DNA of 64,000 nucleotides from Tetradesmus obliquus (Eukaryota > Chlorophyta > Chlorophyceae > Sphaeropleales > Scenedesmaceae), in assembly GCA_030272155.1 (NCBI GenBank), contig CP126200.1, forward strand, positions 434,001 to 498,000. The letters run 5' to 3'. This document shows positions 1 to 47,192 of this stretch, in pieces. Made by a program: the position numbers and the translations under genes. Positions within the stretch are counted from its first letter, which is position 1, and the number at the start of each line of letters is the position of its first letter. The notes below the pieces were generated by a model. That model made no database searches. It had not been told where the DNA came from and was given only the letters and a program-made list of their open reading frames with translations.

Positions 1-334
1 GTAGGGCAACCGTTGAGACAAGTAACGTGTGGTTCAGTAGCTGGAGCTGCATGAAGCACATGTTAGCACGTACAATAATTAATTTTAGCCGTAACAAGTA
101 CAATCATTCACGCACATTGGCTCAACTCGCCTGCATGTGAACTGCCCATCAACAGCACTGCTGCCCTGGCAGAACTGCCTTGCCACGCGCGCGCGCTTTT
201 CACTCTGGGCCAGTCTATGCACCAATACACCATCTGACAATTATTATCAGATAACAATCTATCAACTTATCATGCCTGTGGCTGTCCATGCTGGCATACA
301 GTTGAAAACAGAGACATAACCACCCAGCTACAGC

Positions 335-1842
335 ATGGCACCAGCACATTGCCGGCGCCGTGCGGTGCGCACACACAGGAGCCCAACCAGCAGAGGAGCT
401 GTCAGAAAGGTGAGCTTGCAGGGAGTGTCAATCAACGACCTGCTGACAGCTGCTAGCTGTCTAGAGTGCAGCCAGCAGCCATATACATTCTAAGCCCTGC
501 AGCAGCAGCAGCAGCAGCGTGCTCAGCGCTGATCATCCCTAGGCCAGTTGCCAGCCGTACCCGTGCGCTGCTTGTTGTCACGGCATACAAACACCCTGTC
601 CAGCCTGCTGCGCACCACATCCCACAAATCTGGCAGCCTCAGTGCATCAGCCATGACAGAGGCAGGTGTGATGTTCATGAATATGTCACGCAGCGTCCGC
701 TGCAGATCACGCGGTGATACATCTGCACCAGTCAGCTGGTAGGTGTTGTACAGATGGTTGCGGAAGCTAGCCTTGAGGCTGCCGAATGCATGCTCAATGG
801 GCTGGTTGAAGTCTGGGGAGTAGGGTGCAATTTGCAGCACCTGCTCTGGGCTGATGCCAACTGCAGCTAGGAGCTCTGCGGCATCCTGCCCGACATGAAC
901 ACTGGGGTTGTCGAAGATGTACAGCGGCGTAGTGCCGCGCGCGCGCTGCTGTTGGTTAGCCTTCTCTGCAAGCTCCTTCATGCAGTGGACAAACTCCAGC
1001 TGTGTCATGCTCTTGGCCTTCACGTTCTTCTTCTTCTTCTGCCTCTTCAACTGCAGGTGCAGGTTTTGCCGGGTTGGCAGCGGAAAGCCTTGTTAGCAGC
1101 AGCGCAGCTGAATGTGCAAGTGGATGAAAAGGGACGCCCATTCATCAGGCTTGAGGCAGATGGTAAAAGCAGGCCCAGGATCATCAGCTTGGGGATACGC
1201 AAGCGGCCACTGTACTGGGCCATGACGGGCTGCCTGCCAGGTGTGCAGCACTTCAAGTTCTGCGAGCCGCGCGCTGCCGCAACTGAAGCAGCTCTGGAGT
1301 GCAAGCAGTGTGCATGTTTGATGCCTAAAGTGGGTGGCACAGGCGCACGCAACATGCCTGCAAGTGAGGAGCAGCTGATGCGCAAGCTGTACAGGTTGGG
1401 AATATGTGACAGCATGTGCGCGCAAGTGGCAGTAGGGTGGTGGCGAGGCCGGGTCGATTTCTTGCATGCGCAGCGCAGCGTGCTGATTCAAGCAGATGGG
1501 ACATGCCATGACACTGGTATGTATGACAACAGCACAGAGAAGCTGTTGCAGCGCGACGTTGCCTTCTGTGCTGCTGCGTATGCCAAGTTCCTGCCAGCAG
1601 GCGGCAGTGTGCTGCGGGTGCGCACATGTGAAAGTGACTGGCAGGATTCCCTGGAGACTGGTTTCCAGCTTGCTGCTGGGGGTGGTGTCATTGTGCTGTC
1701 ACCAAGCTACTCTGCTGTTATGGTCAGCGCAGGCCGCGGTGTGCAGCGCGCCTTCCCTGAGGCACTGCGAGATGCACTGCCACGTTGTGTGTACACAGAA
1801 CGCAACAGCTGGCATGTCTTTCAATGGCGCGCATCTAAGTAA
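335..1842 (+). CDS. Predicted Vsr/DUF559-like PD-(D/E)XK nuclease, antisense to the transposase (array copy 1)
   Basis: The uninterrupted reading frame runs 895-1842, but its first 54 codons are only the antisense of transposase exon 2. A better model has exon 1 at 335-409 (ATG 335, in-frame TAA just upstream at 317, 25 mostly basic residues), then an intron 410-1056 (GTGAGC to CTGCAG, preceded by a long pyrimidine tract), and exon 2 at 1057-1842. Both junction phases are 0, giving about 286 residues. Exon 2 shows a possible zinc site (C-x5-H-x3-C-x12-C-x2-C) and then the Vsr/DUF559-type order: SEEQLMRKL, Q-x-x-x-G-x4-RVDF, VLIQADGTCH, an RD helix, and a final SVLRVRT strand. Candidate catalytic residues are the SEE glutamates, the Asp of VDF, and Q-x-D before the His. 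Function is inferred: DNA cleavage, perhaps assisting transposition. The exon-1 assignment is less certain than exon 2. Confidence 0.65.
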
Positions 1843-2738
1843 TAGCAGCACACACTCACATAGTATGGTGTGTTGGGGTTGCCAACGTGGTCAATGTTGT
1901 CTGTTGTGCCGGTGGTGAACTTGCAGTAGACAGCGCCGTGCACCGCGTTGACGGCGCACACAAAGTGTAGCTTGACTGGTTTGTTGTCCTGGCCCTTGCG
2001 CATCCACTTGCATGGTAGCACAGCATGTACGTTTGCATCATGTGCATCGCAATACACCTTGATGGCGCCGCCTGCTAGGTTGGACATCCAGAGTTTGCAC
2101 TCATCAACAAAATAAATTCTGCTCAGCAAGTCTGGCTCATCCTGGAACATCTTGTAGAGCCTCTCTGCTGCAGCCTTTCTCCTGTCTTTCTGCTTGTCTG
2201 TCAGGTCCATCTTCACATCTATTCTTCTGCGCACCAGGTTGGGGTCAACAGCTTTCATGCGCTTCAGCAGTTGCTTGGGCCTGATGTTGTACTTCCTGCA
2301 TAGGCCACCCAGGTACTCATTTTCCTGACAAGCAAGTTTGATTGATGTCCACCATACATGCACGTCGACTTTCTTCTTTGCTTCTGCACTTGGGTAGGCC
2401 TTGACTACCTTGCCAGCTTTGAATGTTTCACTGGCCTTTAATGCCACGTCATCTGGGACTTTTGGGGGTCTGCCCTTGTGCTTGGGAGTTGCCACCGTGC
2501 CATACTGCTTGAAGTTCTTGTAGTGGGTCATGCAGAAGGAATTCAGGTCCTGTTTGATTTGAGCAGCATGCTTAGGAAAGTGTACTCTGTAATAGCCTGC
2601 CGCACCCTTTGGACTGCCGGCGATGGCTAGCATCGTGAGCACCGCCACCACCGCCGCCACCCGCGCGCCCGTTGACTTGCGGTTGCTCTCCCATCCCAAA
2701 GGGTGCTTGCGCACCATGGACAGCCACCCTGCAGCCAT
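523..2738 (-). CDS. IS630/Tc1-mariner-like DDE transposase, two exons (array copy 1)
   Basis: Predicted cut-and-paste DNA transposase of about 468 residues. Exon 1 is 2738-1860 and exon 2 is 1050-523, with stop TGA at 525-523. The 809-bp intron has a GTGAGT donor (1859) and a CTGCAG acceptor (1056-1051); the exons join in phase 0. Exon 1 begins at ATG 2738 and carries a helix-turn-helix-like region ending in a GRPPK linker (about residues 65-95), then the first catalytic Asp in FVDECKLW (D212). Exon 2 opens with a lysine-rich stretch, then gives the second Asp in IFDNPSVH (about D340) and the YSPDFNQPIEHAF block (Glu about 379), a DD38E-like spacing. The family block normally reads NPIE; here there is an extra Gln. 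Splicing restores the usual distance between the first and second Asp, which supports the model. The intron is almost filled by the antisense nuclease exon. Family assignment is by motif only. No terminal inverted repeats were identified. Confidence 0.85.
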
Positions 2739-4641
2739 GGATTCAAAACATATGCAGGAGTCAGCTGTGCTTCTGCTAGCAGTGCAAACAGAAATAACAT
2801 GTCAGGTCAACCTAATGTTTGCAGCAACCTGGAGTTTGACCAGCCTTCACTAGGCACTGGTACGAAAGTAGCGCAAAGGCAGCATACTCATTAAATGCAA
2901 CTTTCAACAACGAATCTAAATCAAATTGAGCCACTATATGGGGTGCTGTGTAACTTGAGTAAAGTGCTTGCAAACCACCTGCTGCGCCCCGACTCTTTGA
3001 ATTTTCGCGGGTCTGTTATCTGCTGCTTTCTGCTGCTATAGGGCGCTGCTGCCTGCACATATGTATTTATGTAACCGTTTCTACTTCTGGGCAGCACCTG
3101 CTGGCTGATCGGGCTCTGCAGCTGTGGTGTGCCAAGTGCCCTGCCGCTGTTGTTGCGGTCTGCTGTCTGGCCCTGTACGTTGTGCGCTGCGCTGCTGCTG
3201 CTAATCTTGTTGCTTATCACCGATCAACGTTTCAGCATTACAGGCAGCTGCTGCGCGTGTGCAGCTAGGGTGGTTGAGCACAGTTGGTTGAGTGCTGCCA
3301 GTCCACACACTCTCCTGCAGACATTCATCTTGTGTGATCACGCTGAATTCTGGAGCTGAAAAAAACTAGCAGTTTGGAGCGGGCGCTGCAAGCAGGTGAG
3401 GTGCCTGCAGGACAGCTGACATGCAAGCAAACCAAGGCAGCAGGTTCAGCAGCTGTGCCTTGCTGTACCTACCACAAGCAGCAGGTTGCTGTGCCAGCAT
3501 GGCTTTCTGTTTGTGTGCTATGTGGCTTTGTCTCATATCTGGGATGCTAGGTTCGTACCCTACCCCACTGAAGGCAAAAATGCACATCTTCCTTTGCTGC
3601 AGCAGTTCTCAGCCTGCATTGCAATCCTGCTGCTGCTGTTTCTGGGCAAAGTTGATGAAATGCCTGCCCACCTTTTTATGTTATAGCAGGCCTGCTGCAA
3701 CTGCTGCTGGTGGTGCAGCTGTCCCAAATCCTGCATTACTGTTGTTTGCAATTGCTGGGACCTGCCTGGCCAGCAGCACATTCAGCAGCAGACAGCAGAG
3801 TGCAGCTCAGAGGAGGGTGCTGTCACCTGCTGTAGCCTCTGTTTTTCGAATGCACACTTTGCCAGGCAAGACAGCAGCAGCAGCAGCCTGGTGGTCATGC
3901 AGTGCTGCTGCTAAATTCACAAAAGCACATTCAGAGCACAGCCTTGTCTTGAAAGACGTTTTAAAAGCAATCCGAATTGTCTGCTGTTGCTGCCGCAGCA
4001 CGATCGAGCTGGCATAGCCTGCACAGGTGTCTTGGACTCACTGGCTCCGTGACCAGGCTGGCTGCCCGGCGTCCCACCGGAGAAAATTCTCGGCCCAGTA
4101 AGATGTAAGAATCAGCTGTTATGTATGAGGATAAGTTTGCAGCGTGACAGCTGTCTGCATCGAGAGTGGCTGATTCGGCAGCACTTCCCCGTCACGGATT
4201 ACCTGACTCAAACACAGCTTTCTCCTGCCGTGCGTCAGCTCAATTAAATACTTGAATAGATGTTATTACAATGCCAAGAGTGCAGCAACATCAAAGCATC
4301 CTGCTTGGTAGGGCAACCGTTGAGACAAGTAACGTGTGGTTCAGTAGCTGGAGCTGCATGAAGCACATGTTAGCACGTACAATAATTAATTTTAGCCGTA
4401 ACAAGTACAATCATTCACGCACATTGGCTCAACTCGCCTGCATGTGAACTGCCCATCAACAGCACTGCTGCCCTGGCAGAACTGCCTTGCCACGCGCGCG
4501 CGCTTTTCACTCTGGGCCAGTCTATGCACCAATACACCATCTGACAATTATTATCAGATAACAATCTATCAACTTATCATGCCTGTGGCTGTCCATGCTG
4601 GCATACAGTTGAAAACAGAGACATAACCACCCAGCTACAGC
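2739..4641. other. Shared upstream region between transposase of one unit and nuclease of the next
   Basis: About 1.9 kb without a convincing gene separates the transposase start (2738) from the next nuclease start (4642), so the two are divergently transcribed across unit boundaries. Equivalent stretches are 7046-8948, 11353-13255, 15660-17562, 19967-21869 and 24274-25105 (truncated). The content is CTG/CAG-biased, with a short hairpin-forming GAGAAAATTCTC at about 4081-4092. Open frames such as 3421-4017 are Cys/Ala/Ser-rich and resemble no known family. Any transposon ends should lie here, but I could not find paired inverted repeats by eye. Confidence 0.5.
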
Positions 4642-6149
4642 ATGGCACCAGCACATTGCCGGCGCCGTGCGGTGCGCACACACAGGAGCCCAACCAGCAG
4701 AGGAGCTGTCAGAAAGGTGAGCTTGCAGGGAGTGTCAATCAACGACCTGCTGACAGCTGCTAGCTGTCTAGAGTGCAGCCAGCAGCCATATACATTCTAA
4801 GCCCTGCAGCAGCAGCAGCAGCAGCGTGCTCAGCGCTGATCATCCCTAGGCCAGTTGCCAGCCGTACCCGTGCGCTGCTTGTTGTCACGGCATACAAACA
4901 CCCTGTCCAGCCTGCTGCGCACCACATCCCACAAATCTGGCAGCCTCAGTGCATCAGCCATGACAGAGGCAGGTGTGATGTTCATGAATATGTCACGCAG
5001 CGTCCGCTGCAGATCACGCGGTGATACATCTGCACCAGTCAGCTGGTAGGTGTTGTACAGATGGTTGCGGAAGCTAGCCTTGAGGCTGCCGAATGCATGC
5101 TCAATGGGCTGGTTGAAGTCTGGGGAGTAGGGTGCAATTTGCAGCACCTGCTCTGGGCTGATGCCAACTGCAGCTAGGAGCTCTGCGGCATCCTGCCCGA
5201 CATGAACACTGGGGTTGTCGAAGATGTACAGCGGCGTAGTGCCGCGCGCGCGCTGCTGTTGGTTAGCCTTCTCTGCAAGCTCCTTCATGCAGTGGACAAA
5301 CTCCAGCTGTGTCATGCTCTTGGCCTTCACGTTCTTCTTCTTCTTCTGCCTCTTCAACTGCAGGTGCAGGTTTTGCCGGGTTGGCAGCGGAAAGCCTTGT
5401 TAGCAGCAGCGCAGCTGAATGTGCAAGTGGATGAAAAGGGACGCCCATTCATCAGGCTTGAGGCAGATGGTAAAAGCAGGCCCAGGATCATCAGCTTGGG
5501 GATACGCAAGCGGCCACTGTACTGGGCCATGACGGGCTGCCTGCCAGGTGTGCAGCACTTCAAGTTCTGCGAGCCGCGCGCTGCCGCAACTGAAGCAGCT
5601 CTGGAGTGCAAGCAGTGTGCATGTTTGATGCCTAAAGTGGGTGGCACAGGCGCACGCAACATGCCTGCAAGTGAGGAGCAGCTGATGCGCAAGCTGTACA
5701 GGTTGGGAATATGTGACAGCATGTGCGCGCAAGTGGCAGTAGGGTGGTGGCGAGGCCGGGTCGATTTCTTGCATGCGCAGCGCAGCGTGCTGATTCAAGC
5801 AGATGGGACATGCCATGACACTGGTATGTATGACAACAGCACAGAGAAGCTGTTGCAGCGCGACGTTGCCTTCTGTGCTGCTGCGTATGCCAAGTTCCTG
5901 CCAGCAGGCGGCAGTGTGCTGCGGGTGCGCACATGTGAAAGTGACTGGCAGGATTCCCTGGAGACTGGTTTCCAGCTTGCTGCTGGGGGTGGTGTCATTG
6001 TGCTGTCACCAAGCTACTCTGCTGTTATGGTCAGCGCAGGCCGCGGTGTGCAGCGCGCCTTCCCTGAGGCACTGCGAGATGCACTGCCACGTTGTGTGTA
6101 CACAGAACGCAACAGCTGGCATGTCTTTCAATGGCGCGCATCTAAGTAA
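4642..6149 (+). CDS. Vsr/DUF559-like nuclease, array copy 2
   Basis: Identical to copy 1. Proposed exons are 4642-4716 and 5364-6149; the unspliced frame is 5202-6149. It lies antisense to the copy-2 transposase, each last exon inside the other's intron. Confidence 0.63.
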
Positions 6150-7045
6150 TAGCAGCACACACTCACATAGTATGGTGTGTTGGGGTTGCCAACGTGGTCA
6201 ATGTTGTCTGTTGTGCCGGTGGTGAACTTGCAGTAGACAGCGCCGTGCACCGCGTTGACGGCGCACACAAAGTGTAGCTTGACTGGTTTGTTGTCCTGGC
6301 CCTTGCGCATCCACTTGCATGGTAGCACAGCATGTACGTTTGCATCATGTGCATCGCAATACACCTTGATGGCGCCGCCTGCTAGGTTGGACATCCAGAG
6401 TTTGCACTCATCAACAAAATAAATTCTGCTCAGCAAGTCTGGCTCATCCTGGAACATCTTGTAGAGCCTCTCTGCTGCAGCCTTTCTCCTGTCTTTCTGC
6501 TTGTCTGTCAGGTCCATCTTCACATCTATTCTTCTGCGCACCAGGTTGGGGTCAACAGCTTTCATGCGCTTCAGCAGTTGCTTGGGCCTGATGTTGTACT
6601 TCCTGCATAGGCCACCCAGGTACTCATTTTCCTGACAAGCAAGTTTGATTGATGTCCACCATACATGCACGTCGACTTTCTTCTTTGCTTCTGCACTTGG
6701 GTAGGCCTTGACTACCTTGCCAGCTTTGAATGTTTCACTGGCCTTTAATGCCACGTCATCTGGGACTTTTGGGGGTCTGCCCTTGTGCTTGGGAGTTGCC
6801 ACCGTGCCATACTGCTTGAAGTTCTTGTAGTGGGTCATGCAGAAGGAATTCAGGTCCTGTTTGATTTGAGCAGCATGCTTAGGAAAGTGTACTCTGTAAT
6901 AGCCTGCCGCACCCTTTGGACTGCCGGCGATGGCTAGCATCGTGAGCACCGCCACCACCGCCGCCACCCGCGCGCCCGTTGACTTGCGGTTGCTCTCCCA
7001 TCCCAAAGGGTGCTTGCGCACCATGGACAGCCACCCTGCAGCCAT
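4830..7045 (-). CDS. DDE transposase, array copy 2
   Basis: Identical to copy 1, shifted by 4,307 bp. Exons are 7045-6167 and 5357-4830, with the same GTGAGT donor and CTGCAG acceptor and all three catalytic motifs intact. Confidence 0.85.
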
Positions 7046-8948
7046 GGATTCAAAACATATGCAGGAGTCAGCTGTGCTTCTGCTAGCAGTGCAAACAGAA
7101 ATAACATGTCAGGTCAACCTAATGTTTGCAGCAACCTGGAGTTTGACCAGCCTTCACTAGGCACTGGTACGAAAGTAGCGCAAAGGCAGCATACTCATTA
7201 AATGCAACTTTCAACAACGAATCTAAATCAAATTGAGCCACTATATGGGGTGCTGTGTAACTTGAGTAAAGTGCTTGCAAACCACCTGCTGCGCCCCGAC
7301 TCTTTGAATTTTCGCGGGTCTGTTATCTGCTGCTTTCTGCTGCTATAGGGCGCTGCTGCCTGCACATATGTATTTATGTAACCGTTTCTACTTCTGGGCA
7401 GCACCTGCTGGCTGATCGGGCTCTGCAGCTGTGGTGTGCCAAGTGCCCTGCCGCTGTTGTTGCGGTCTGCTGTCTGGCCCTGTACGTTGTGCGCTGCGCT
7501 GCTGCTGCTAATCTTGTTGCTTATCACCGATCAACGTTTCAGCATTACAGGCAGCTGCTGCGCGTGTGCAGCTAGGGTGGTTGAGCACAGTTGGTTGAGT
7601 GCTGCCAGTCCACACACTCTCCTGCAGACATTCATCTTGTGTGATCACGCTGAATTCTGGAGCTGAAAAAAACTAGCAGTTTGGAGCGGGCGCTGCAAGC
7701 AGGTGAGGTGCCTGCAGGACAGCTGACATGCAAGCAAACCAAGGCAGCAGGTTCAGCAGCTGTGCCTTGCTGTACCTACCACAAGCAGCAGGTTGCTGTG
7801 CCAGCATGGCTTTCTGTTTGTGTGCTATGTGGCTTTGTCTCATATCTGGGATGCTAGGTTCGTACCCTACCCCACTGAAGGCAAAAATGCACATCTTCCT
7901 TTGCTGCAGCAGTTCTCAGCCTGCATTGCAATCCTGCTGCTGCTGTTTCTGGGCAAAGTTGATGAAATGCCTGCCCACCTTTTTATGTTATAGCAGGCCT
8001 GCTGCAACTGCTGCTGGTGGTGCAGCTGTCCCAAATCCTGCATTACTGTTGTTTGCAATTGCTGGGACCTGCCTGGCCAGCAGCACATTCAGCAGCAGAC
8101 AGCAGAGTGCAGCTCAGAGGAGGGTGCTGTCACCTGCTGTAGCCTCTGTTTTTCGAATGCACACTTTGCCAGGCAAGACAGCAGCAGCAGCAGCCTGGTG
8201 GTCATGCAGTGCTGCTGCTAAATTCACAAAAGCACATTCAGAGCACAGCCTTGTCTTGAAAGACGTTTTAAAAGCAATCCGAATTGTCTGCTGTTGCTGC
8301 CGCAGCACGATCGAGCTGGCATAGCCTGCACAGGTGTCTTGGACTCACTGGCTCCGTGACCAGGCTGGCTGCCCGGCGTCCCACCGGAGAAAATTCTCGG
8401 CCCAGTAAGATGTAAGAATCAGCTGTTATGTATGAGGATAAGTTTGCAGCGTGACAGCTGTCTGCATCGAGAGTGGCTGATTCGGCAGCACTTCCCCGTC
8501 ACGGATTACCTGACTCAAACACAGCTTTCTCCTGCCGTGCGTCAGCTCAATTAAATACTTGAATAGATGTTATTACAATGCCAAGAGTGCAGCAACATCA
8601 AAGCATCCTGCTTGGTAGGGCAACCGTTGAGACAAGTAACGTGTGGTTCAGTAGCTGGAGCTGCATGAAGCACATGTTAGCACGTACAATAATTAATTTT
8701 AGCCGTAACAAGTACAATCATTCACGCACATTGGCTCAACTCGCCTGCATGTGAACTGCCCATCAACAGCACTGCTGCCCTGGCAGAACTGCCTTGCCAC
8801 GCGCGCGCGCTTTTCACTCTGGGCCAGTCTATGCACCAATACACCATCTGACAATTATTATCAGATAACAATCTATCAACTTATCATGCCTGTGGCTGTC
8901 CATGCTGGCATACAGTTGAAAACAGAGACATAACCACCCAGCTACAGC

Positions 8949-10456
8949 ATGGCACCAGCACATTGCCGGCGCCGTGCGGTGCGCACACACAGGAGCCCAA
9001 CCAGCAGAGGAGCTGTCAGAAAGGTGAGCTTGCAGGGAGTGTCAATCAACGACCTGCTGACAGCTGCTAGCTGTCTAGAGTGCAGCCAGCAGCCATATAC
9101 ATTCTAAGCCCTGCAGCAGCAGCAGCAGCAGCGTGCTCAGCGCTGATCATCCCTAGGCCAGTTGCCAGCCGTACCCGTGCGCTGCTTGTTGTCACGGCAT
9201 ACAAACACCCTGTCCAGCCTGCTGCGCACCACATCCCACAAATCTGGCAGCCTCAGTGCATCAGCCATGACAGAGGCAGGTGTGATGTTCATGAATATGT
9301 CACGCAGCGTCCGCTGCAGATCACGCGGTGATACATCTGCACCAGTCAGCTGGTAGGTGTTGTACAGATGGTTGCGGAAGCTAGCCTTGAGGCTGCCGAA
9401 TGCATGCTCAATGGGCTGGTTGAAGTCTGGGGAGTAGGGTGCAATTTGCAGCACCTGCTCTGGGCTGATGCCAACTGCAGCTAGGAGCTCTGCGGCATCC
9501 TGCCCGACATGAACACTGGGGTTGTCGAAGATGTACAGCGGCGTAGTGCCGCGCGCGCGCTGCTGTTGGTTAGCCTTCTCTGCAAGCTCCTTCATGCAGT
9601 GGACAAACTCCAGCTGTGTCATGCTCTTGGCCTTCACGTTCTTCTTCTTCTTCTGCCTCTTCAACTGCAGGTGCAGGTTTTGCCGGGTTGGCAGCGGAAA
9701 GCCTTGTTAGCAGCAGCGCAGCTGAATGTGCAAGTGGATGAAAAGGGACGCCCATTCATCAGGCTTGAGGCAGATGGTAAAAGCAGGCCCAGGATCATCA
9801 GCTTGGGGATACGCAAGCGGCCACTGTACTGGGCCATGACGGGCTGCCTGCCAGGTGTGCAGCACTTCAAGTTCTGCGAGCCGCGCGCTGCCGCAACTGA
9901 AGCAGCTCTGGAGTGCAAGCAGTGTGCATGTTTGATGCCTAAAGTGGGTGGCACAGGCGCACGCAACATGCCTGCAAGTGAGGAGCAGCTGATGCGCAAG
10001 CTGTACAGGTTGGGAATATGTGACAGCATGTGCGCGCAAGTGGCAGTAGGGTGGTGGCGAGGCCGGGTCGATTTCTTGCATGCGCAGCGCAGCGTGCTGA
10101 TTCAAGCAGATGGGACATGCCATGACACTGGTATGTATGACAACAGCACAGAGAAGCTGTTGCAGCGCGACGTTGCCTTCTGTGCTGCTGCGTATGCCAA
10201 GTTCCTGCCAGCAGGCGGCAGTGTGCTGCGGGTGCGCACATGTGAAAGTGACTGGCAGGATTCCCTGGAGACTGGTTTCCAGCTTGCTGCTGGGGGTGGT
10301 GTCATTGTGCTGTCACCAAGCTACTCTGCTGTTATGGTCAGCGCAGGCCGCGGTGTGCAGCGCGCCTTCCCTGAGGCACTGCGAGATGCACTGCCACGTT
10401 GTGTGTACACAGAACGCAACAGCTGGCATGTCTTTCAATGGCGCGCATCTAAGTAA
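8949..10456 (+). CDS. Vsr/DUF559-like nuclease, array copy 3
   Basis: Proposed exons 8949-9023 and 9671-10456, identical to copy 1; the unspliced frame is 9509-10456. Confidence 0.63.
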
Positions 10457-11352
10457 TAGCAGCACACACTCACATAGTATGGTGTGTTGGGGTTGCCAAC
10501 GTGGTCAATGTTGTCTGTTGTGCCGGTGGTGAACTTGCAGTAGACAGCGCCGTGCACCGCGTTGACGGCGCACACAAAGTGTAGCTTGACTGGTTTGTTG
10601 TCCTGGCCCTTGCGCATCCACTTGCATGGTAGCACAGCATGTACGTTTGCATCATGTGCATCGCAATACACCTTGATGGCGCCGCCTGCTAGGTTGGACA
10701 TCCAGAGTTTGCACTCATCAACAAAATAAATTCTGCTCAGCAAGTCTGGCTCATCCTGGAACATCTTGTAGAGCCTCTCTGCTGCAGCCTTTCTCCTGTC
10801 TTTCTGCTTGTCTGTCAGGTCCATCTTCACATCTATTCTTCTGCGCACCAGGTTGGGGTCAACAGCTTTCATGCGCTTCAGCAGTTGCTTGGGCCTGATG
10901 TTGTACTTCCTGCATAGGCCACCCAGGTACTCATTTTCCTGACAAGCAAGTTTGATTGATGTCCACCATACATGCACGTCGACTTTCTTCTTTGCTTCTG
11001 CACTTGGGTAGGCCTTGACTACCTTGCCAGCTTTGAATGTTTCACTGGCCTTTAATGCCACGTCATCTGGGACTTTTGGGGGTCTGCCCTTGTGCTTGGG
11101 AGTTGCCACCGTGCCATACTGCTTGAAGTTCTTGTAGTGGGTCATGCAGAAGGAATTCAGGTCCTGTTTGATTTGAGCAGCATGCTTAGGAAAGTGTACT
11201 CTGTAATAGCCTGCCGCACCCTTTGGACTGCCGGCGATGGCTAGCATCGTGAGCACCGCCACCACCGCCGCCACCCGCGCGCCCGTTGACTTGCGGTTGC
11301 TCTCCCATCCCAAAGGGTGCTTGCGCACCATGGACAGCCACCCTGCAGCCAT
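9137..11352 (-). CDS. DDE transposase, array copy 3
   Basis: Exons 11352-10474 and 9664-9137, identical in protein to copy 1. The T to C change at 11427 lies 75 bp upstream of its start codon and does not affect the protein. Confidence 0.85.
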
Positions 11353-13255
11353 GGATTCAAAACATATGCAGGAGTCAGCTGTGCTTCTGCTAGCAGTGCA
11401 AACAGAAATAACATGTCAGGTCAACCCAATGTTTGCAGCAACCTGGAGTTTGACCAGCCTTCACTAGGCACTGGTACGAAAGTAGCGCAAAGGCAGCATA
11501 CTCATTAAATGCAACTTTCAACAACGAATCTAAATCAAATTGAGCCACTATATGGGGTGCTGTGTAACTTGAGTAAAGTGCTTGCAAACCACCTGCTGCG
11601 CCCCGACTCTTTGAATTTTCGCGGGTCTGTTATCTGCTGCTTTCTGCTGCTATAGGGCGCTGCTGCCTGCACATATGTATTTATGTAACCGTTTCTACTT
11701 CTGGGCAGCACCTGCTGGCTGATCGGGCTCTGCAGCTGTGGTGTGCCAAGTGCCCTGCCGCTGTTGTTGCGGTCTGCTGTCTGGCCCTGTACGTTGTGCG
11801 CTGCGCTGCTGCTGCTAATCTTGTTGCTTATCACCGATCAACGTTTCAGCATTACAGGCAGCTGCTGCGCGTGTGCAGCTAGGGTGGTTGAGCACAGTTG
11901 GTTGAGTGCTGCCAGTCCACACACTCTCCTGCAGACATTCATCTTGTGTGATCACGCTGAATTCTGGAGCTGAAAAAAACTAGCAGTTTGGAGCGGGCGC
12001 TGCAAGCAGGTGAGGTGCCTGCAGGACAGCTGACATGCAAGCAAACCAAGGCAGCAGGTTCAGCAGCTGTGCCTTGCTGTACCTACCACAAGCAGCAGGT
12101 TGCTGTGCCAGCATGGCTTTCTGTTTGTGTGCTATGTGGCTTTGTCTCATATCTGGGATGCTAGGTTCGTACCCTACCCCACTGAAGGCAAAAATGCACA
12201 TCTTCCTTTGCTGCAGCAGTTCTCAGCCTGCATTGCAATCCTGCTGCTGCTGTTTCTGGGCAAAGTTGATGAAATGCCTGCCCACCTTTTTATGTTATAG
12301 CAGGCCTGCTGCAACTGCTGCTGGTGGTGCAGCTGTCCCAAATCCTGCATTACTGTTGTTTGCAATTGCTGGGACCTGCCTGGCCAGCAGCACATTCAGC
12401 AGCAGACAGCAGAGTGCAGCTCAGAGGAGGGTGCTGTCACCTGCTGTAGCCTCTGTTTTTCGAATGCACACTTTGCCAGGCAAGACAGCAGCAGCAGCAG
12501 CCTGGTGGTCATGCAGTGCTGCTGCTAAATTCACAAAAGCACATTCAGAGCACAGCCTTGTCTTGAAAGACGTTTTAAAAGCAATCCGAATTGTCTGCTG
12601 TTGCTGCCGCAGCACGATCGAGCTGGCATAGCCTGCACAGGTGTCTTGGACTCACTGGCTCCGTGACCAGGCTGGCTGCCCGGCGTCCCACCGGAGAAAA
12701 TTCTCGGCCCAGTAAGATGTAAGAATCAGCTGTTATGTATGAGGATAAGTTTGCAGCGTGACAGCTGTCTGCATCGAGAGTGGCTGATTCGGCAGCACTT
12801 CCCCGTCACGGATTACCTGACTCAAACACAGCTTTCTCCTGCCGTGCGTCAGCTCAATTAAATACTTGAATAGATGTTATTACAATGCCAAGAGTGCAGC
12901 AACATCAAAGCATCCTGCTTGGTAGGGCAACCGTTGAGACAAGTAACGTGTGGTTCAGTAGCTGGAGCTGCATGAAGCACATGTTAGCACGTACAATAAT
13001 TAATTTTAGCCGTAACAAGTACAATCATTCACGCACATTGGCTCAACTCGCCTGCATGTGAACTGCCCATCAACAGCACTGCTGCCCTGGCAGAACTGCC
13101 TTGCCACGCGCGCGCGCTTTTCACTCTGGGCCAGTCTATGCACCAATACACCATCTGACAATTATTATCAGATAACAATCTATCAACTTATCATGCCTGT
13201 GGCTGTCCATGCTGGCATACAGTTGAAAACAGAGACATAACCACCCAGCTACAGC

Positions 13256-14763
13256 ATGGCACCAGCACATTGCCGGCGCCGTGCGGTGCGCACACACAGG
13301 AGCCCAACCAGCAGAGGAGCTGTCAGAAAGGTGAGCTTGCAGGGAGTGTCAATCAACGACCTGCTGACAGCTGCTAGCTGTCTAGAGTGCAGCCAGCAGC
13401 CATATACATTCTAAGCCCTGCAGCAGCAGCAGCAGCAGCGTGCTCAGCGCTGATCATCCCTAGGCCAGTTGCCAGCCGTACCCGTGCGCTGCTTGTTGTC
13501 ACGGCATACAAACACCCTGTCCAGCCTGCTGCGCACCACATCCCACAAATCTGGCAGCCTCAGTGCATCAGCCATGACAGAGGCAGGTGTGATGTTCATG
13601 AATATGTCACGCAGCGTCCGCTGCAGATCACGCGGTGATACATCTGCACCAGTCAGCTGGTAGGTGTTGTACAGATGGTTGCGGAAGCTAGCCTTGAGGC
13701 TGCCGAATGCATGCTCAATGGGCTGGTTGAAGTCTGGGGAGTAGGGTGCAATTTGCAGCACCTGCTCTGGGCTGATGCCAACTGCAGCTAGGAGCTCTGC
13801 GGCATCCTGCCCGACATGAACACTGGGGTTGTCGAAGATGTACAGCGGCGTAGTGCCGCGCGCGCGCTGCTGTTGGTTAGCCTTCTCTGCAAGCTCCTTC
13901 ATGCAGTGGACAAACTCCAGCTGTGTCATGCTCTTGGCCTTCACGTTCTTCTTCTTCTTCTGCCTCTTCAACTGCAGGTGCAGGTTTTGCCGGGTTGGCA
14001 GCGGAAAGCCTTGTTAGCAGCAGCGCAGCTGAATGTGCAAGTGGATGAAAAGGGACGCCCATTCATCAGGCTTGAGGCAGATGGTAAAAGCAGGCCCAGG
14101 ATCATCAGCTTGGGGATACGCAAGCGGCCACTGTACTGGGCCATGACGGGCTGCCTGCCAGGTGTGCAGCACTTCAAGTTCTGCGAGCCGCGCGCTGCCG
14201 CAACTGAAGCAGCTCTGGAGTGCAAGCAGTGTGCATGTTTGATGCCTAAAGTGGGTGGCACAGGCGCACGCAACATGCCTGCAAGTGAGGAGCAGCTGAT
14301 GCGCAAGCTGTACAGGTTGGGAATATGTGACAGCATGTGCGCGCAAGTGGCAGTAGGGTGGTGGCGAGGCCGGGTCGATTTCTTGCATGCGCAGCGCAGC
14401 GTGCTGATTCAAGCAGATGGGACATGCCATGACACTGGTATGTATGACAACAGCACAGAGAAGCTGTTGCAGCGCGACGTTGCCTTCTGTGCTGCTGCGT
14501 ATGCCAAGTTCCTGCCAGCAGGCGGCAGTGTGCTGCGGGTGCGCACATGTGAAAGTGACTGGCAGGATTCCCTGGAGACTGGTTTCCAGCTTGCTGCTGG
14601 GGGTGGTGTCATTGTGCTGTCACCAAGCTACTCTGCTGTTATGGTCAGCGCAGGCCGCGGTGTGCAGCGCGCCTTCCCTGAGGCACTGCGAGATGCACTG
14701 CCACGTTGTGTGTACACAGAACGCAACAGCTGGCATGTCTTTCAATGGCGCGCATCTAAGTAA
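13256..14763 (+). CDS. Vsr/DUF559-like nuclease, array copy 4
   Basis: Proposed exons 13256-13330 and 13978-14763, identical to copy 1; the unspliced frame is 13816-14763. Confidence 0.63.
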
Positions 14764-15659
14764 TAGCAGCACACACTCACATAGTATGGTGTGTTGGGGT
14801 TGCCAACGTGGTCAATGTTGTCTGTTGTGCCGGTGGTGAACTTGCAGTAGACAGCGCCGTGCACCGCGTTGACGGCGCACACAAAGTGTAGCTTGACTGG
14901 TTTGTTGTCCTGGCCCTTGCGCATCCACTTGCATGGTAGCACAGCATGTACGTTTGCATCATGTGCATCGCAATACACCTTGATGGCGCCGCCTGCTAGG
15001 TTGGACATCCAGAGTTTGCACTCATCAACAAAATAAATTCTGCTCAGCAAGTCTGGCTCATCCTGGAACATCTTGTAGAGCCTCTCTGCTGCAGCCTTTC
15101 TCCTGTCTTTCTGCTTGTCTGTCAGGTCCATCTTCACATCTATTCTTCTGCGCACCAGGTTGGGGTCAACAGCTTTCATGCGCTTCAGCAGTTGCTTGGG
15201 CCTGATGTTGTACTTCCTGCATAGGCCACCCAGGTACTCATTTTCCTGACAAGCAAGTTTGATTGATGTCCACCATACATGCACGTCGACTTTCTTCTTT
15301 GCTTCTGCACTTGGGTAGGCCTTGACTACCTTGCCAGCTTTGAATGTTTCACTGGCCTTTAATGCCACGTCATCTGGGACTTTTGGGGGTCTGCCCTTGT
15401 GCTTGGGAGTTGCCACCGTGCCATACTGCTTGAAGTTCTTGTAGTGGGTCATGCAGAAGGAATTCAGGTCCTGTTTGATTTGAGCAGCATGCTTAGGAAA
15501 GTGTACTCTGTAATAGCCTGCCGCACCCTTTGGACTGCCGGCGATGGCTAGCATCGTGAGCACCGCCACCACCGCCGCCACCCGCGCGCCCGTTGACTTG
15601 CGGTTGCTCTCCCATCCCAAAGGGTGCTTGCGCACCATGGACAGCCACCCTGCAGCCAT
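13444..15659 (-). CDS. DDE transposase, array copy 4
   Basis: Exons 15659-14781 and 13971-13444, identical to copy 1, with the same intron and catalytic motifs. Confidence 0.85.
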
Positions 15660-17562
15660 GGATTCAAAACATATGCAGGAGTCAGCTGTGCTTCTGCTAG
15701 CAGTGCAAACAGAAATAACATGTCAGGTCAACCTAATGTTTGCAGCAACCTGGAGTTTGACCAGCCTTCACTAGGCACTGGTACGAAAGTAGCGCAAAGG
15801 CAGCATACTCATTAAATGCAACTTTCAACAACGAATCTAAATCAAATTGAGCCACTATATGGGGTGCTGTGTAACTTGAGTAAAGTGCTTGCAAACCACC
15901 TGCTGCGCCCCGACTCTTTGAATTTTCGCGGGTCTGTTATCTGCTGCTTTCTGCTGCTATAGGGCGCTGCTGCCTGCACATATGTATTTATGTAACCGTT
16001 TCTACTTCTGGGCAGCACCTGCTGGCTGATCGGGCTCTGCAGCTGTGGTGTGCCAAGTGCCCTGCCGCTGTTGTTGCGGTCTGCTGTCTGGCCCTGTACG
16101 TTGTGCGCTGCGCTGCTGCTGCTAATCTTGTTGCTTATCACCGATCAACGTTTCAGCATTACAGGCAGCTGCTGCGCGTGTGCAGCTAGGGTGGTTGAGC
16201 ACAGTTGGTTGAGTGCTGCCAGTCCACACACTCTCCTGCAGACATTCATCTTGTGTGATCACGCTGAATTCTGGAGCTGAAAAAAACTAGCAGTTTGGAG
16301 CGGGCGCTGCAAGCAGGTGAGGTGCCTGCAGGACAGCTGACATGCAAGCAAACCAAGGCAGCAGGTTCAGCAGCTGTGCCTTGCTGTACCTACCACAAGC
16401 AGCAGGTTGCTGTGCCAGCATGGCTTTCTGTTTGTGTGCTATGTGGCTTTGTCTCATATCTGGGATGCTAGGTTCGTACCCTACCCCACTGAAGGCAAAA
16501 ATGCACATCTTCCTTTGCTGCAGCAGTTCTCAGCCTGCATTGCAATCCTGCTGCTGCTGTTTCTGGGCAAAGTTGATGAAATGCCTGCCCACCTTTTTAT
16601 GTTATAGCAGGCCTGCTGCAACTGCTGCTGGTGGTGCAGCTGTCCCAAATCCTGCATTACTGTTGTTTGCAATTGCTGGGACCTGCCTGGCCAGCAGCAC
16701 ATTCAGCAGCAGACAGCAGAGTGCAGCTCAGAGGAGGGTGCTGTCACCTGCTGTAGCCTCTGTTTTTCGAATGCACACTTTGCCAGGCAAGACAGCAGCA
16801 GCAGCAGCCTGGTGGTCATGCAGTGCTGCTGCTAAATTCACAAAAGCACATTCAGAGCACAGCCTTGTCTTGAAAGACGTTTTAAAAGCAATCCGAATTG
16901 TCTGCTGTTGCTGCCGCAGCACGATCGAGCTGGCATAGCCTGCACAGGTGTCTTGGACTCACTGGCTCCGTGACCAGGCTGGCTGCCCGGCGTCCCACCG
17001 GAGAAAATTCTCGGCCCAGTAAGATGTAAGAATCAGCTGTTATGTATGAGGATAAGTTTGCAGCGTGACAGCTGTCTGCATCGAGAGTGGCTGATTCGGC
17101 AGCACTTCCCCGTCACGGATTACCTGACTCAAACACAGCTTTCTCCTGCCGTGCGTCAGCTCAATTAAATACTTGAATAGATGTTATTACAATGCCAAGA
17201 GTGCAGCAACATCAAAGCATCCTGCTTGGTAGGGCAACCGTTGAGACAAGTAACGTGTGGTTCAGTAGCTGGAGCTGCATGAAGCACATGTTAGCACGTA
17301 CAATAATTAATTTTAGCCGTAACAAGTACAATCATTCACGCACATTGGCTCAACTCGCCTGCATGTGAACTGCCCATCAACAGCACTGCTGCCCTGGCAG
17401 AACTGCCTTGCCACGCGCGCGCGCTTTTCACTCTGGGCCAGTCTATGCACCAATACACCATCTGACAATTATTATCAGATAACAATCTATCAACTTATCA
17501 TGCCTGTGGCTGTCCATGCTGGCATACAGTTGAAAACAGAGACATAACCACCCAGCTACAGC

Positions 17563-19070
17563 ATGGCACCAGCACATTGCCGGCGCCGTGCGGTGCGCAC
17601 ACACAGGAGCCCAACCAGCAGAGGAGCTGTCAGAAAGGTGAGCTTGCAGGGAGTGTCAATCAACGACCTGCTGACAGCTGCTAGCTGTCTAGAGTGCAGC
17701 CAGCAGCCATATACATTCTAAGCCCTGCAGCAGCAGCAGCAGCAGCGTGCTCAGCGCTGATCATCCCTAGGCCAGTTGCCAGCCGTACCCGTGCGCTGCT
17801 TGTTGTCACGGCATACAAACACCCTGTCCAGCCTGCTGCGCACCACATCCCACAAATCTGGCAGCCTCAGTGCATCAGCCATGACAGAGGCAGGTGTGAT
17901 GTTCATGAATATGTCACGCAGCGTCCGCTGCAGATCACGCGGTGATACATCTGCACCAGTCAGCTGGTAGGTGTTGTACAGATGGTTGCGGAAGCTAGCC
18001 TTGAGGCTGCCGAATGCATGCTCAATGGGCTGGTTGAAGTCTGGGGAGTAGGGTGCAATTTGCAGCACCTGCTCTGGGCTGATGCCAACTGCAGCTAGGA
18101 GCTCTGCGGCATCCTGCCCGACATGAACACTGGGGTTGTCGAAGATGTACAGCGGCGTAGTGCCGCGCGCGCGCTGCTGTTGGTTAGCCTTCTCTGCAAG
18201 CTCCTTCATGCAGTGGACAAACTCCAGCTGTGTCATGCTCTTGGCCTTCACGTTCTTCTTCTTCTTCTGCCTCTTCAACTGCAGGTGCAGGTTTTGCCGG
18301 GTTGGCAGCGGAAAGCCTTGTTAGCAGCAGCGCAGCTGAATGTGCAAGTGGATGAAAAGGGACGCCCATTCATCAGGCTTGAGGCAGATGGTAAAAGCAG
18401 GCCCAGGATCATCAGCTTGGGGATACGCAAGCGGCCACTGTACTGGGCCATGACGGGCTGCCTGCCAGGTGTGCAGCACTTCAAGTTCTGCGAGCCGCGC
18501 GCTGCCGCAACTGAAGCAGCTCTGGAGTGCAAGCAGTGTGCATGTTTGATGCCTAAAGTGGGTGGCACAGGCGCACGCAACATGCCTGCAAGTGAGGAGC
18601 AGCTGATGCGCAAGCTGTACAGGTTGGGAATATGTGACAGCATGTGCGCGCAAGTGGCAGTAGGGTGGTGGCGAGGCCGGGTCGATTTCTTGCATGCGCA
18701 GCGCAGCGTGCTGATTCAAGCAGATGGGACATGCCATGACACTGGTATGTATGACAACAGCACAGAGAAGCTGTTGCAGCGCGACGTTGCCTTCTGTGCT
18801 GCTGCGTATGCCAAGTTCCTGCCAGCAGGCGGCAGTGTGCTGCGGGTGCGCACATGTGAAAGTGACTGGCAGGATTCCCTGGAGACTGGTTTCCAGCTTG
18901 CTGCTGGGGGTGGTGTCATTGTGCTGTCACCAAGCTACTCTGCTGTTATGGTCAGCGCAGGCCGCGGTGTGCAGCGCGCCTTCCCTGAGGCACTGCGAGA
19001 TGCACTGCCACGTTGTGTGTACACAGAACGCAACAGCTGGCATGTCTTTCAATGGCGCGCATCTAAGTAA
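17563..19070 (+). CDS. Vsr/DUF559-like nuclease, array copy 5
   Basis: Proposed exons 17563-17637 and 18285-19070, identical to copy 1; the unspliced frame is 18123-19070. Confidence 0.63.
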
Positions 19071-19966
19071 TAGCAGCACACACTCACATAGTATGGTGTG
19101 TTGGGGTTGCCAACGTGGTCAATGTTGTCTGTTGTGCCGGTGGTGAACTTGCAGTAGACAGCGCCGTGCACCGCGTTGACGGCGCACACAAAGTGTAGCT
19201 TGACTGGTTTGTTGTCCTGGCCCTTGCGCATCCACTTGCATGGTAGCACAGCATGTACGTTTGCATCATGTGCATCGCAATACACCTTGATGGCGCCGCC
19301 TGCTAGGTTGGACATCCAGAGTTTGCACTCATCAACAAAATAAATTCTGCTCAGCAAGTCTGGCTCATCCTGGAACATCTTGTAGAGCCTCTCTGCTGCA
19401 GCCTTTCTCCTGTCTTTCTGCTTGTCTGTCAGGTCCATCTTCACATCTATTCTTCTGCGCACCAGGTTGGGGTCAACAGCTTTCATGCGCTTCAGCAGTT
19501 GCTTGGGCCTGATGTTGTACTTCCTGCATAGGCCACCCAGGTACTCATTTTCCTGACAAGCAAGTTTGATTGATGTCCACCATACATGCACGTCGACTTT
19601 CTTCTTTGCTTCTGCACTTGGGTAGGCCTTGACTACCTTGCCAGCTTTGAATGTTTCACTGGCCTTTAATGCCACGTCATCTGGGACTTTTGGGGGTCTG
19701 CCCTTGTGCTTGGGAGTTGCCACCGTGCCATACTGCTTGAAGTTCTTGTAGTGGGTCATGCAGAAGGAATTCAGGTCCTGTTTGATTTGAGCAGCATGCT
19801 TAGGAAAGTGTACTCTGTAATAGCCTGCCGCACCCTTTGGACTGCCGGCGATGGCTAGCATCGTGAGCACCGCCACCACCGCCGCCACCCGCGCGCCCGT
19901 TGACTTGCGGTTGCTCTCCCATCCCAAAGGGTGCTTGCGCACCATGGACAGCCACCCTGCAGCCAT
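17751..19966 (-). CDS. DDE transposase, array copy 5
   Basis: Exons 19966-19088 and 18278-17751, identical to copy 1. Confidence 0.85.
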
Positions 19967-21869
19967 GGATTCAAAACATATGCAGGAGTCAGCTGTGCTT
20001 CTGCTAGCAGTGCAAACAGAAATAACATGTCAGGTCAACCTAATGTTTGCAGCAACCTGGAGTTTGACCAGCCTTCACTAGGCACTGGTACGAAAGTAGC
20101 GCAAAGGCAGCATACTCATTAAATGCAACTTTCAACAACGAATCTAAATCAAATTGAGCCACTATATGGGGTGCTGTGTAACTTGAGTAAAGTGCTTGCA
20201 AACCACCTGCTGCGCCCCGACTCTTTGAATTTTCGCGGGTCTGTTATCTGCTGCTTTCTGCTGCTATAGGGCGCTGCTGCCTGCACATATGTATTTATGT
20301 AACCGTTTCTACTTCTGGGCAGCACCTGCTGGCTGATCGGGCTCTGCAGCTGTGGTGTGCCAAGTGCCCTGCCGCTGTTGTTGCGGTCTGCTGTCTGGCC
20401 CTGTACGTTGTGCGCTGCGCTGCTGCTGCTAATCTTGTTGCTTATCACCGATCAACGTTTCAGCATTACAGGCAGCTGCTGCGCGTGTGCAGCTAGGGTG
20501 GTTGAGCACAGTTGGTTGAGTGCTGCCAGTCCACACACTCTCCTGCAGACATTCATCTTGTGTGATCACGCTGAATTCTGGAGCTGAAAAAAACTAGCAG
20601 TTTGGAGCGGGCGCTGCAAGCAGGTGAGGTGCCTGCAGGACAGCTGACATGCAAGCAAACCAAGGCAGCAGGTTCAGCAGCTGTGCCTTGCTGTACCTAC
20701 CACAAGCAGCAGGTTGCTGTGCCAGCATGGCTTTCTGTTTGTGTGCTATGTGGCTTTGTCTCATATCTGGGATGCTAGGTTCGTACCCTACCCCACTGAA
20801 GGCAAAAATGCACATCTTCCTTTGCTGCAGCAGTTCTCAGCCTGCATTGCAATCCTGCTGCTGCTGTTTCTGGGCAAAGTTGATGAAATGCCTGCCCACC
20901 TTTTTATGTTATAGCAGGCCTGCTGCAACTGCTGCTGGTGGTGCAGCTGTCCCAAATCCTGCATTACTGTTGTTTGCAATTGCTGGGACCTGCCTGGCCA
21001 GCAGCACATTCAGCAGCAGACAGCAGAGTGCAGCTCAGAGGAGGGTGCTGTCACCTGCTGTAGCCTCTGTTTTTCGAATGCACACTTTGCCAGGCAAGAC
21101 AGCAGCAGCAGCAGCCTGGTGGTCATGCAGTGCTGCTGCTAAATTCACAAAAGCACATTCAGAGCACAGCCTTGTCTTGAAAGACGTTTTAAAAGCAATC
21201 CGAATTGTCTGCTGTTGCTGCCGCAGCACGATCGAGCTGGCATAGCCTGCACAGGTGTCTTGGACTCACTGGCTCCGTGACCAGGCTGGCTGCCCGGCGT
21301 CCCACCGGAGAAAATTCTCGGCCCAGTAAGATGTAAGAATCAGCTGTTATGTATGAGGATAAGTTTGCAGCGTGACAGCTGTCTGCATCGAGAGTGGCTG
21401 ATTCGGCAGCACTTCCCCGTCACGGATTACCTGACTCAAACACAGCTTTCTCCTGCCGTGCGTCAGCTCAATTAAATACTTGAATAGATGTTATTACAAT
21501 GCCAAGAGTGCAGCAACATCAAAGCATCCTGCTTGGTAGGGCAACCGTTGAGACAAGTAACGTGTGGTTCAGTAGCTGGAGCTGCATGAAGCACATGTTA
21601 GCACGTACAATAATTAATTTTAGCCGTAACAAGTACAATCATTCACGCACATTGGCTCAACTCGCCTGCATGTGAACTGCCCATCAACAGCACTGCTGCC
21701 CTGGCAGAACTGCCTTGCCACGCGCGCGCGCTTTTCACTCTGGGCCAGTCTATGCACCAATACACCATCTGACAATTATTATCAGATAACAATCTATCAA
21801 CTTATCATGCCTGTGGCTGTCCATGCTGGCATACAGTTGAAAACAGAGACATAACCACCCAGCTACAGC

Positions 21870-23377
21870 ATGGCACCAGCACATTGCCGGCGCCGTGCGG
21901 TGCGCACACACAGGAGCCCAACCAGCAGAGGAGCTGTCAGAAAGGTGAGCTTGCAGGGAGTGTCAATCAACGACCTGCTGACAGCTGCTAGCTGTCTAGA
22001 GTGCAGCCAGCAGCCATATACATTCTAAGCCCTGCAGCAGCAGCAGCAGCAGCGTGCTCAGCGCTGATCATCCCTAGGCCAGTTGCCAGCCGTACCCGTG
22101 CGCTGCTTGTTGTCACGGCATACAAACACCCTGTCCAGCCTGCTGCGCACCACATCCCACAAATCTGGCAGCCTCAGTGCATCAGCCATGACAGAGGCAG
22201 GTGTGATGTTCATGAATATGTCACGCAGCGTCCGCTGCAGATCACGCGGTGATACATCTGCACCAGTCAGCTGGTAGGTGTTGTACAGATGGTTGCGGAA
22301 GCTAGCCTTGAGGCTGCCGAATGCATGCTCAATGGGCTGGTTGAAGTCTGGGGAGTAGGGTGCAATTTGCAGCACCTGCTCTGGGCTGATGCCAACTGCA
22401 GCTAGGAGCTCTGCGGCATCCTGCCCGACATGAACACTGGGGTTGTCGAAGATGTACAGCGGCGTAGTGCCGCGCGCGCGCTGCTGTTGGTTAGCCTTCT
22501 CTGCAAGCTCCTTCATGCAGTGGACAAACTCCAGCTGTGTCATGCTCTTGGCCTTCACGTTCTTCTTCTTCTTCTGCCTCTTCAACTGCAGGTGCAGGTT
22601 TTGCCGGGTTGGCAGCGGAAAGCCTTGTTAGCAGCAGCGCAGCTGAATGTGCAAGTGGATGAAAAGGGACGCCCATTCATCAGGCTTGAGGCAGATGGTA
22701 AAAGCAGGCCCAGGATCATCAGCTTGGGGATACGCAAGCGGCCACTGTACTGGGCCATGACGGGCTGCCTGCCAGGTGTGCAGCACTTCAAGTTCTGCGA
22801 GCCGCGCGCTGCCGCAACTGAAGCAGCTCTGGAGTGCAAGCAGTGTGCATGTTTGATGCCTAAAGTGGGTGGCACAGGCGCACGCAACATGCCTGCAAGT
22901 GAGGAGCAGCTGATGCGCAAGCTGTACAGGTTGGGAATATGTGACAGCATGTGCGCGCAAGTGGCAGTAGGGTGGTGGCGAGGCCGGGTCGATTTCTTGC
23001 ATGCGCAGCGCAGCGTGCTGATTCAAGCAGATGGGACATGCCATGACACTGGTATGTATGACAACAGCACAGAGAAGCTGTTGCAGCGCGACGTTGCCTT
23101 CTGTGCTGCTGCGTATGCCAAGTTCCTGCCAGCAGGCGGCAGTGTGCTGCGGGTGCGCACATGTGAAAGTGACTGGCAGGATTCCCTGGAGACTGGTTTC
23201 CAGCTTGCTGCTGGGGGTGGTGTCATTGTGCTGTCACCAAGCTACTCTGCTGTTATGGTCAGCGCAGGCCGCGGTGTGCAGCGCGCCTTCCCTGAGGCAC
23301 TGCGAGATGCACTGCCACGTTGTGTGTACACAGAACGCAACAGCTGGCATGTCTTTCAATGGCGCGCATCTAAGTAA
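21870..23377 (+). CDS. Vsr/DUF559-like nuclease, array copy 6
   Basis: Proposed exons 21870-21944 and 22592-23377, identical to copy 1; the unspliced frame is 22430-23377. Confidence 0.63.
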
Positions 23378-47006: not shown

Positions 47007-47192
47007 CATGCCTCAGGGGCGGCAGCAGCATGCCTCAGGGGCGGCAGCAGCATGCCTCAGGGGCGGCAGCAGCATGCCTCAGGGGCGGCAGCAGCATGCC
47101 TCGGGGGCGGCAGCAGCATGCCTCAGGGGCGGCAGCAGCATGCCTCAGGGGCGGCAGCAGCATGCCTCAGGGGCGGCAGCAGCATGCCTCAG
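47007..47192. repeat. 22-bp minisatellite, 8 copies plus a partial
   Basis: Unit beginning CATGCCTCAGGGGCGG and ending CAGCAG, repeated head to tail with one variant (CTCGGGGG at about 47101). As 22 is not a multiple of 3, the three plus-strand frames all stay open and read rotated versions of one peptide (MPQGRQQHASGAAAACLRGGS-like). This explains the overlapping open frames here and argues against coding. Confidence 0.93.

Follow-up and report, generated by a model that had tools for sequence, protein, structure and literature searches.

Putatively interlocked transposase and nuclease-like genes in a composite-like DNA transposon of Tetradesmus obliquus

We analysed a 64,000-nucleotide stretch of the genome of the green alga Tetradesmus obliquus (C10:434001-498000, referred to below as the window), searching the genome as a whole (104.66 Mb, 17 contigs), and found that tandem copies of a mobile element occupy one end of the window and likely carry two antisense genes in a reciprocal interlock, i.e., the last coding exon of each gene would lie within the intron of the other. 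One gene encodes a mariner/IS630-like transposase and the other probably encodes a DUF559/VSR-like nuclease, which is called the nuclease below. The repeated unit has transposon ends, target duplications and single insertions, and we take it to be one period of a composite-like DNA transposon of the form LTDR-INT-LTDR, in which LTDR denotes a terminal direct repeat that has inverted ends of its own and INT denotes the interior of approximately 3.58 kb.

The interlocked genes and their introns

Joining 2738-1860 with 1050-523 on the minus strand gives an open transposase of 468 amino acids (aa), and joining 335-409 with 1057-1842 on the plus strand gives an open nuclease of 286 aa, both in phase 0 (Table 1). 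The splice signals are GTGAGT...CTGCAG for the transposase and GTGAGC...CTGCAG for the nuclease. Along the DNA, the exons follow one another as nuclease 1, transposase 2, nuclease 2 and transposase 1, which makes the genes a convergent pair whose introns overlap across the strands only via the CTGCAG at 1051-1056. Transposase exon 2 starts with a Lys/Arg-rich stretch, whose antisense forms the pyrimidine tract ahead of the nuclease acceptor; this tract is shorter in subfamily C (defined below). The exon coordinates, GT-AG signals and phase-0 junctions that had been proposed in the original prediction were correct in unit 1 and in all six copies. Moreover, the reciprocal interlock of the coding exons was borne out in the sequence and was common to diverged subfamilies of the same genome. 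That both genes are spliced is what we infer from this arrangement, as DNA cannot show splicing itself.

Seven sequences were compared: A, the window copy; B (L009); C (L052/L053), along with a second C copy (L047/L069); D (L077); E (L078); and F (L079). A, B, E and F were mutually 91-99.7% identical, A was 72% identical to C and 81% to D, and C was 66% identical to D, so the seven sequences represent about three lineages. Searches of the genome with P0030 and P0015 revealed no further diverged subfamily among the 126 of 400 and 150 of 274 candidates that were scored. The same exon layout was found in A, B, C, D and F. Both splice layouts are retained in subfamilies of this genome that have diverged to 66-81% DNA identity, and the listed database relatives (20 for the nuclease and 12 for the transposase) included no spliced product. 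The latter weighs against the interlock, as do the broken transposase of the copy that defines D and the lack of nuclease exon 1 in E, whose sequence is unalignable there. The D copy itself (C6:5539301-5542200) has nuclease exon 1 and an open exon 2 of 264 codons beside its broken transposase, which suggests that the nuclease frame outlived its partner.

The transposase intron is very likely real. The DDE_3 domain was matched by exon 2 only; A enters the profile at position 54 of 146 with 28.9 bits (cutoff 28.6), and C enters at position 55 with 24.0 bits, which is below the cutoff. An exon-1 profile built from 12 sequences aligned to Mos1 (E 0.015) across its GDEKWI motif, which we take to be the site of the first catalytic Asp. 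The structural model of exon 1, whose mean predicted local distance difference test score (pLDDT) was 62, had two Foldseek matches below 0.001, and both were Mos1 (3.2e-5 and 2.0e-4). The low template modelling scores (0.24-0.27) and this mean pLDDT count against the fold match. Exon 2 aligned weakly (E 1) with SETMAR, a mariner-derived protein, at the motifs of the second and third catalytic residues. Judged by these matches, the protein is of the mariner/IS630-like DDE type. The joined transposase had no sequence match among solved structures at E 1, a Pfam scan of the 12 exon-1 sequences found no transposase family, and scans of viral contigs with the transposase and nuclease alignments found no relative. 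The donor GTGAGTGTG was kept in all seven aligned sequences. In the database relatives, V stands directly after the end of exon 1 in 11 of 11 aligned sequences and V-S in 10 of 11, and the longest of the 12 listed relatives has at most 317 aa, which is as expected of genomic reading frames that were read through without splicing. The ratio of nonsynonymous to synonymous substitution rates (dN/dS) between A and C was 0.35 and 0.38 for the two exons.

The plus-strand protein is probably a DUF559/VSR-like nuclease. Weak matches to Pfam DUF559 were found in 13 of the 20 family members (best E 0.0018), with the window copy below the cutoff (E 0.23, 11.8 bits, cutoff 20.6), and six of the 20 database relatives carry the source name very-short-patch-repair endonuclease. 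The poor predicted structure (mean pLDDT 56), which had no fold match, tells against this assignment. NCBIfam gave one match only (E 0.1, in one member), the nuclease profile matched no solved structure at E 1, and no relative was found in a scan of genome contigs with the nuclease alignment. Taken together, the weak matches, the source name of the relatives and the poor model make the label nuclease likely, not established. We consider it unlikely that the protein is a DNA-binding accessory of the transposase and that the arrays arise via ordinary unequal crossover between LTDRs. Such an accessory would agree with a window copy that reaches no family cutoff and a model that has no fold match, and unequal crossover requires no nuclease; however, the DUF559 matches and the names of the relatives point to a nuclease, as does the presence of a nuclease at the same place in KolobokP, the composite-like DNA transposons of animals that are reported from seven animal phyla (Kojima and Bao 2022, PMC9587614).

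The nuclease intron is likely real. Exon 1 (ATG, 25 codons, then GTGAGC) is present in six of the seven sequences; A, C and D retained its ATG, length, phase 0 and the donor AG/GTGAGC, and the acceptor CTTCAACTGCAG/GTGCA was kept in all seven (the slash marks the exon boundary). Additionally, the first 25 residues of the database protein P0017 match exon 1 at 11 (A), 10 (C) and 15 (D) of 25 positions and are then followed by V-S. The identities to A, C and D were reached by 6, 2 and 0 per 100,000 shuffles, respectively. The alternative of simple nesting, which appears improbable, is that the nuclease is unspliced or has a non-AUG start within the transposase intron, in which case 335-409 would be no exon and only the transposase intron would be real. 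This would fit the frame in A, which stays open for 186 nt ahead of exon 2, the in-frame ATG that A, B, D, E and F have 162 nt before that exon and that is a possible unspliced start, and the practice of the database gene callers, which for many relatives choose the exon-2 GTG as the start. It would also fit the weak protein constraint on exon 1, which, like the upstream ATG, speaks against the spliced form: given the DNA changes, amino-acid retention had P values of 0.017 (A-D), 0.20 (A-C) and 0.30 (D-C), and the dN/dS of exon 1 between A and C (0.66) lay within the 0.63-1.05 that its five other frames gave. The same-frame control right after exon 1, which is read as intron, had a dN/dS of 0.24. 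Because of this control and the overlap with the other frames, dN/dS over 25-31 codons decides little, and the idea that exon 1 is proven by protein constraint was dropped, as both dN/dS and amino-acid retention were too weak. However, subfamily C has no in-frame ATG within the 168 open nt before exon 2, and P0007 likewise has no Met where it reads through this region. The stretch from the ATG at -162 has a dN/dS between A and C of 1.27 over 50 codons, and nuclease exon 2 has one of 0.55. The ATG, length, phase and donor of exon 1 that A, C and D share, together with a P0017 that starts with the match to exon 1, likewise argue for a spliced nuclease gene. It is very improbable that the array consists of dead transposon copies as an inert satellite, with no expression or splicing of either gene. 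In favour of this, the near identity of many array copies means that array turnover alone could keep the frames open, and some copies have stops, but the dN/dS of 0.35-0.55 (A vs C) in both transposase exons and nuclease exon 2 indicates that the frames have been under selection since the A-C split, and there are separate insertions with intact duplications.

The coding exons of the two genes do not overlap, and to that extent the original prediction was right in stating that the mature mRNAs share no sequence. For the complete mRNAs, the statement was not supported. The distance from the nuclease stop to transposase exon 1 is 17 nt in A and B and 14 nt in C, and the distance from the transposase stop to the near edge of nuclease exon 1 is 113, 110 and 109 nt in A, B and C. 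These short distances hold whatever the poly(A) signal is, and with a gap of 14-17 nt almost any 3' untranslated region (UTR) of the nuclease would be antisense to transposase exon 1. Downstream of the nuclease stop, the first TGTAA, the green-algal poly(A) signal, comes after 745 (A, at position 2588), 745 (B) and 742 nt (C), inside the antisense of transposase exon 1, and after 276 nt in D. Past the transposase stop, it first occurs after 559, 556 and 407 nt in A, B and C, beyond nuclease exon 1; the value for D was left out because its transposase frame is broken. Both 3' UTRs therefore probably lie over exons of the other gene, and the mature mRNAs would share sequence. It follows that splicing would not be the sole barrier to double-stranded RNA, contrary to what had been proposed. 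Before splicing, the two transcripts would be able to pair along about 2 kb of complementary sequence.

Array, element architecture and target sites

The tandem units, each of 4307 bp, fill the window from 1 to 25105, which is the right-hand part of a longer array. The whole array (C10:419620-459105; 39,486 bp) consists of nine units and one additional 723-bp repeat and has TTT at both flanks as a 3-bp target duplication. A single difference among the units was found in the window, at unit position 2813 of copy 3, and the exons were identical in all six gene regions. Four single insertions were assembled, and each proved to be LTDR-INT-LTDR with the LTDRs in direct orientation. The identity of their LTDR pairs in the aligned part was 99.7, 100, 95.7 and 100%. 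Three of these monomers have the target duplications TCA, CAA and GCA; the duplication of the fourth is imperfect (TAT/TCT), which counts against this reading of the element. The inverted ends of the LTDR are 25 bp long and in subfamily C read CAGCTGGG[C/T]ATGGTACAAACGTAGC. The LTDR has 723 bp in both A and C, although the two are 72% identical, and in C it is present in both orientations. Five lone LTDRs of the A/B type were inspected from ten that had been picked for having no neighbour; two are solo LTDRs with the duplications GGT and AGA, two others have an INT-like flank on one side and one is truncated. In units that lack an LTDR (3587 and 3562 bp), the INT-INT junction retains 3 bp, CAG in A and CTG in C, which we read as the excision footprint of an LTDR. 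Sleeping Beauty also leaves a 3-bp CAG/CTG remnant of its inverted ends. Copy counts are lower bounds, as the scoring of nuclease matches covered 146 of the 280 candidates in the genome. An ordinary satellite was dropped as an explanation because of the transposon ends, target duplications and single insertions.

Table 1. Features of the element and its genes in the window (positions are those of the window)
Feature	Position	Strand	Remarks
Part of the (LTDR-INT)9-LTDR array inside the window	1..25105		whole array C10:419620-459105
Nuclease exon 1 (putative)	335..409	+	25 codons, phase 0; donor GTGAGC at 410
Nuclease intron (putative)	410..1056	+	647 nt; contains transposase exon 2
Transposase exon 2 and stop (predicted)	523..1050	-	second catalytic D and E; DDE_3 match
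CTGCAG palindrome	1051..1056		final bases of both introns, one per strand
Transposase intron (predicted)	1051..1859	-	809 nt; contains nuclease exon 2
Nuclease exon 2 (predicted)	1057..1842	+	261 codons and stop; weakly DUF559-like
Transposase exon 1 (predicted)	1860..2738	-	293 codons, with the first catalytic D; similar to Mos1 (first half)
LTDR	2848..3570		723 bp, inverted ends; again at 7155, 11462, 15769, 20076 and 24383
One complete interior (INT)	3571..7154		3584 bp
Right-hand copy of the TTT target duplication	25106..25108		left copy outside the window

Further arrays and single sites were noted elsewhere in the genome. A subfamily C array at C3:7156944-7216160 has 14 interiors between LTDRs, of which, by their nuclease matches, five are on the plus and nine on the minus strand; this mixed orientation suggests that whole interiors flip. 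At C4:222217 and 222940, two left ends of LTDRs in the same orientation are exactly 723 bp apart, i.e., one LTDR abuts another. Ten consecutive matches at C17:995828-1034869 share a TGA in the nuclease frame, which implies that this array was amplified after the change to TGA. LTDR ends that are 345 bp apart at C1:9134755-9135099 form a shortened LTDR that resembles a miniature inverted-repeat transposable element. In the window, an open frame at 24935-25810 runs from the last LTDR into the flank, where by eye it resembles part of a reverse transcriptase (FRFVDDL); it had no Pfam match at E 0.01. Given this flank, the array may sit inside another mobile element.

Relation to known systems and a possible mode of action

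Tc1/mariner elements have a target-site duplication of TA. The element described here shares the DDE_3 domain with them, and its transposase exon 1 can be aligned to the first half of Mos1 and has a predicted fold that resembles it. It differs in its varying 3-bp duplications (TTT, TCA, CAA, GCA, GGT and AGA, and one imperfect TAT/TCT), its intron-split transposase, the composite layout with direct repeats and its second gene. A plain Tc1/mariner element was rejected because of the 3-bp duplications and the absence of TA.

KolobokP (PMC9587614) and our element share the LTDR-INT-LTDR layout with short inverted repeats on each LTDR, multimers of the form (LTDR-INT)n-LTDR with flanking duplications, solo LTDRs, the abutment of INT with INT where an LTDR is missing and a DDD/E transposase that is accompanied, on the opposite strand, by a nuclease. 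In contrast, the KolobokP nuclease is I-PpoI-like and that of our element is probably DUF559/VSR-like, the LTDR of KolobokP has about 450 or 660 bp compared with 723 bp in A and C, and interlocked coding exons were not found described in the parts of the publication that were read (PMC9587614). By eye, there is no Kolobok-type C/DxxH, which would stand between the second D and E, between D340 and E379 of the joined transposase. Membership in KolobokP was rejected since the element has another type of transposase, an LTDR of different length and, as it seems, a different nuclease. No later papers on such composite-like elements were found in a limited literature search.

Antisense pairs without exon overlap were defined and counted in human and mouse (PMC1449890). 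These pairs and our element have opposite-strand genes that overlap outside their exons in common; the element differs in that two genes of two exons each interlock reciprocally within 2.4 kb of mobile DNA and in 3' UTRs that probably overlap exons. To speak of no precedent was thus too strong for the general class (PMC1449890); a reciprocally interlocked transposon did not turn up in a literature search that for most papers covered the search entry alone. Some Giardia introns have been argued to be kept because of antisense gene overlap (PMC6545626); these are host genes, whereas in the element each intron would be held by an exon of the other gene. The combination of this transposase, nuclease and interlocked exons looks new; the layout itself is known from animals.

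The transposase probably acts on the inverted ends of the LTDRs and moves either full elements or LTDRs alone, and the excision of an LTDR would leave the 3-bp footprint. The nuclease would probably cut the DNA of the element; through repair between LTDRs, LTDR-INT units would then be gained or lost and arrays would form. For KolobokP, array growth was proposed to combine transposition with nuclease-induced unequal crossover (PMC9587614). The sequence itself shows the architecture, the 3-bp duplications, that the LTDR is present in some places and absent in others, and that both splice layouts are conserved; we infer transposase mobility, LTDR excision and nuclease-driven array growth. One possible origin of the interlock is that a nuclease gene nested in antisense acquired an exon further upstream, past the end of the transposase gene; from then on, the loss of either intron would have harmed the other gene. 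A more far-reaching reading, which we regard as possible and put forward tentatively, is that the KolobokP way of life, with direct-repeat ends able to move by themselves and arrays that grow through a nuclease of the element's own, was invented a second time with a mariner/IS630-type transposase and an unrelated nuclease, and that the reciprocal introns with their shared palindromic acceptor are a conserved device that couples or opposes the expression of the two genes, e.g., via the collision of convergent transcription and RNA pairing.

If our reading of the element is correct, a composite-like transposon that has a nuclease as its partner evolved at least two times among eukaryotes, each time from a different transposase stock and probably a different nuclease stock, and the model of array growth by induced recombination could be compared between lineages. 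The interlock would also offer a compact natural case for studying convergent antisense splicing and expression as well as introns that cannot be lost. Such elements build arrays of tens of kb (39.5 kb here), which can be mistaken for satellites.

Other features of the window

A large inverted duplication was found at 30884-63567, with seven arm pairs of 207-319 nt that are 81-90% identical and lie in mirrored order. Its arms span 30.9-40.0 kb and 56.0-63.6 kb, and the right arm contains two frames with matches to leucine-rich repeats. Additionally, a 22-bp tandem repeat with 8.6 copies and 98% matches is present at 47003-47192.
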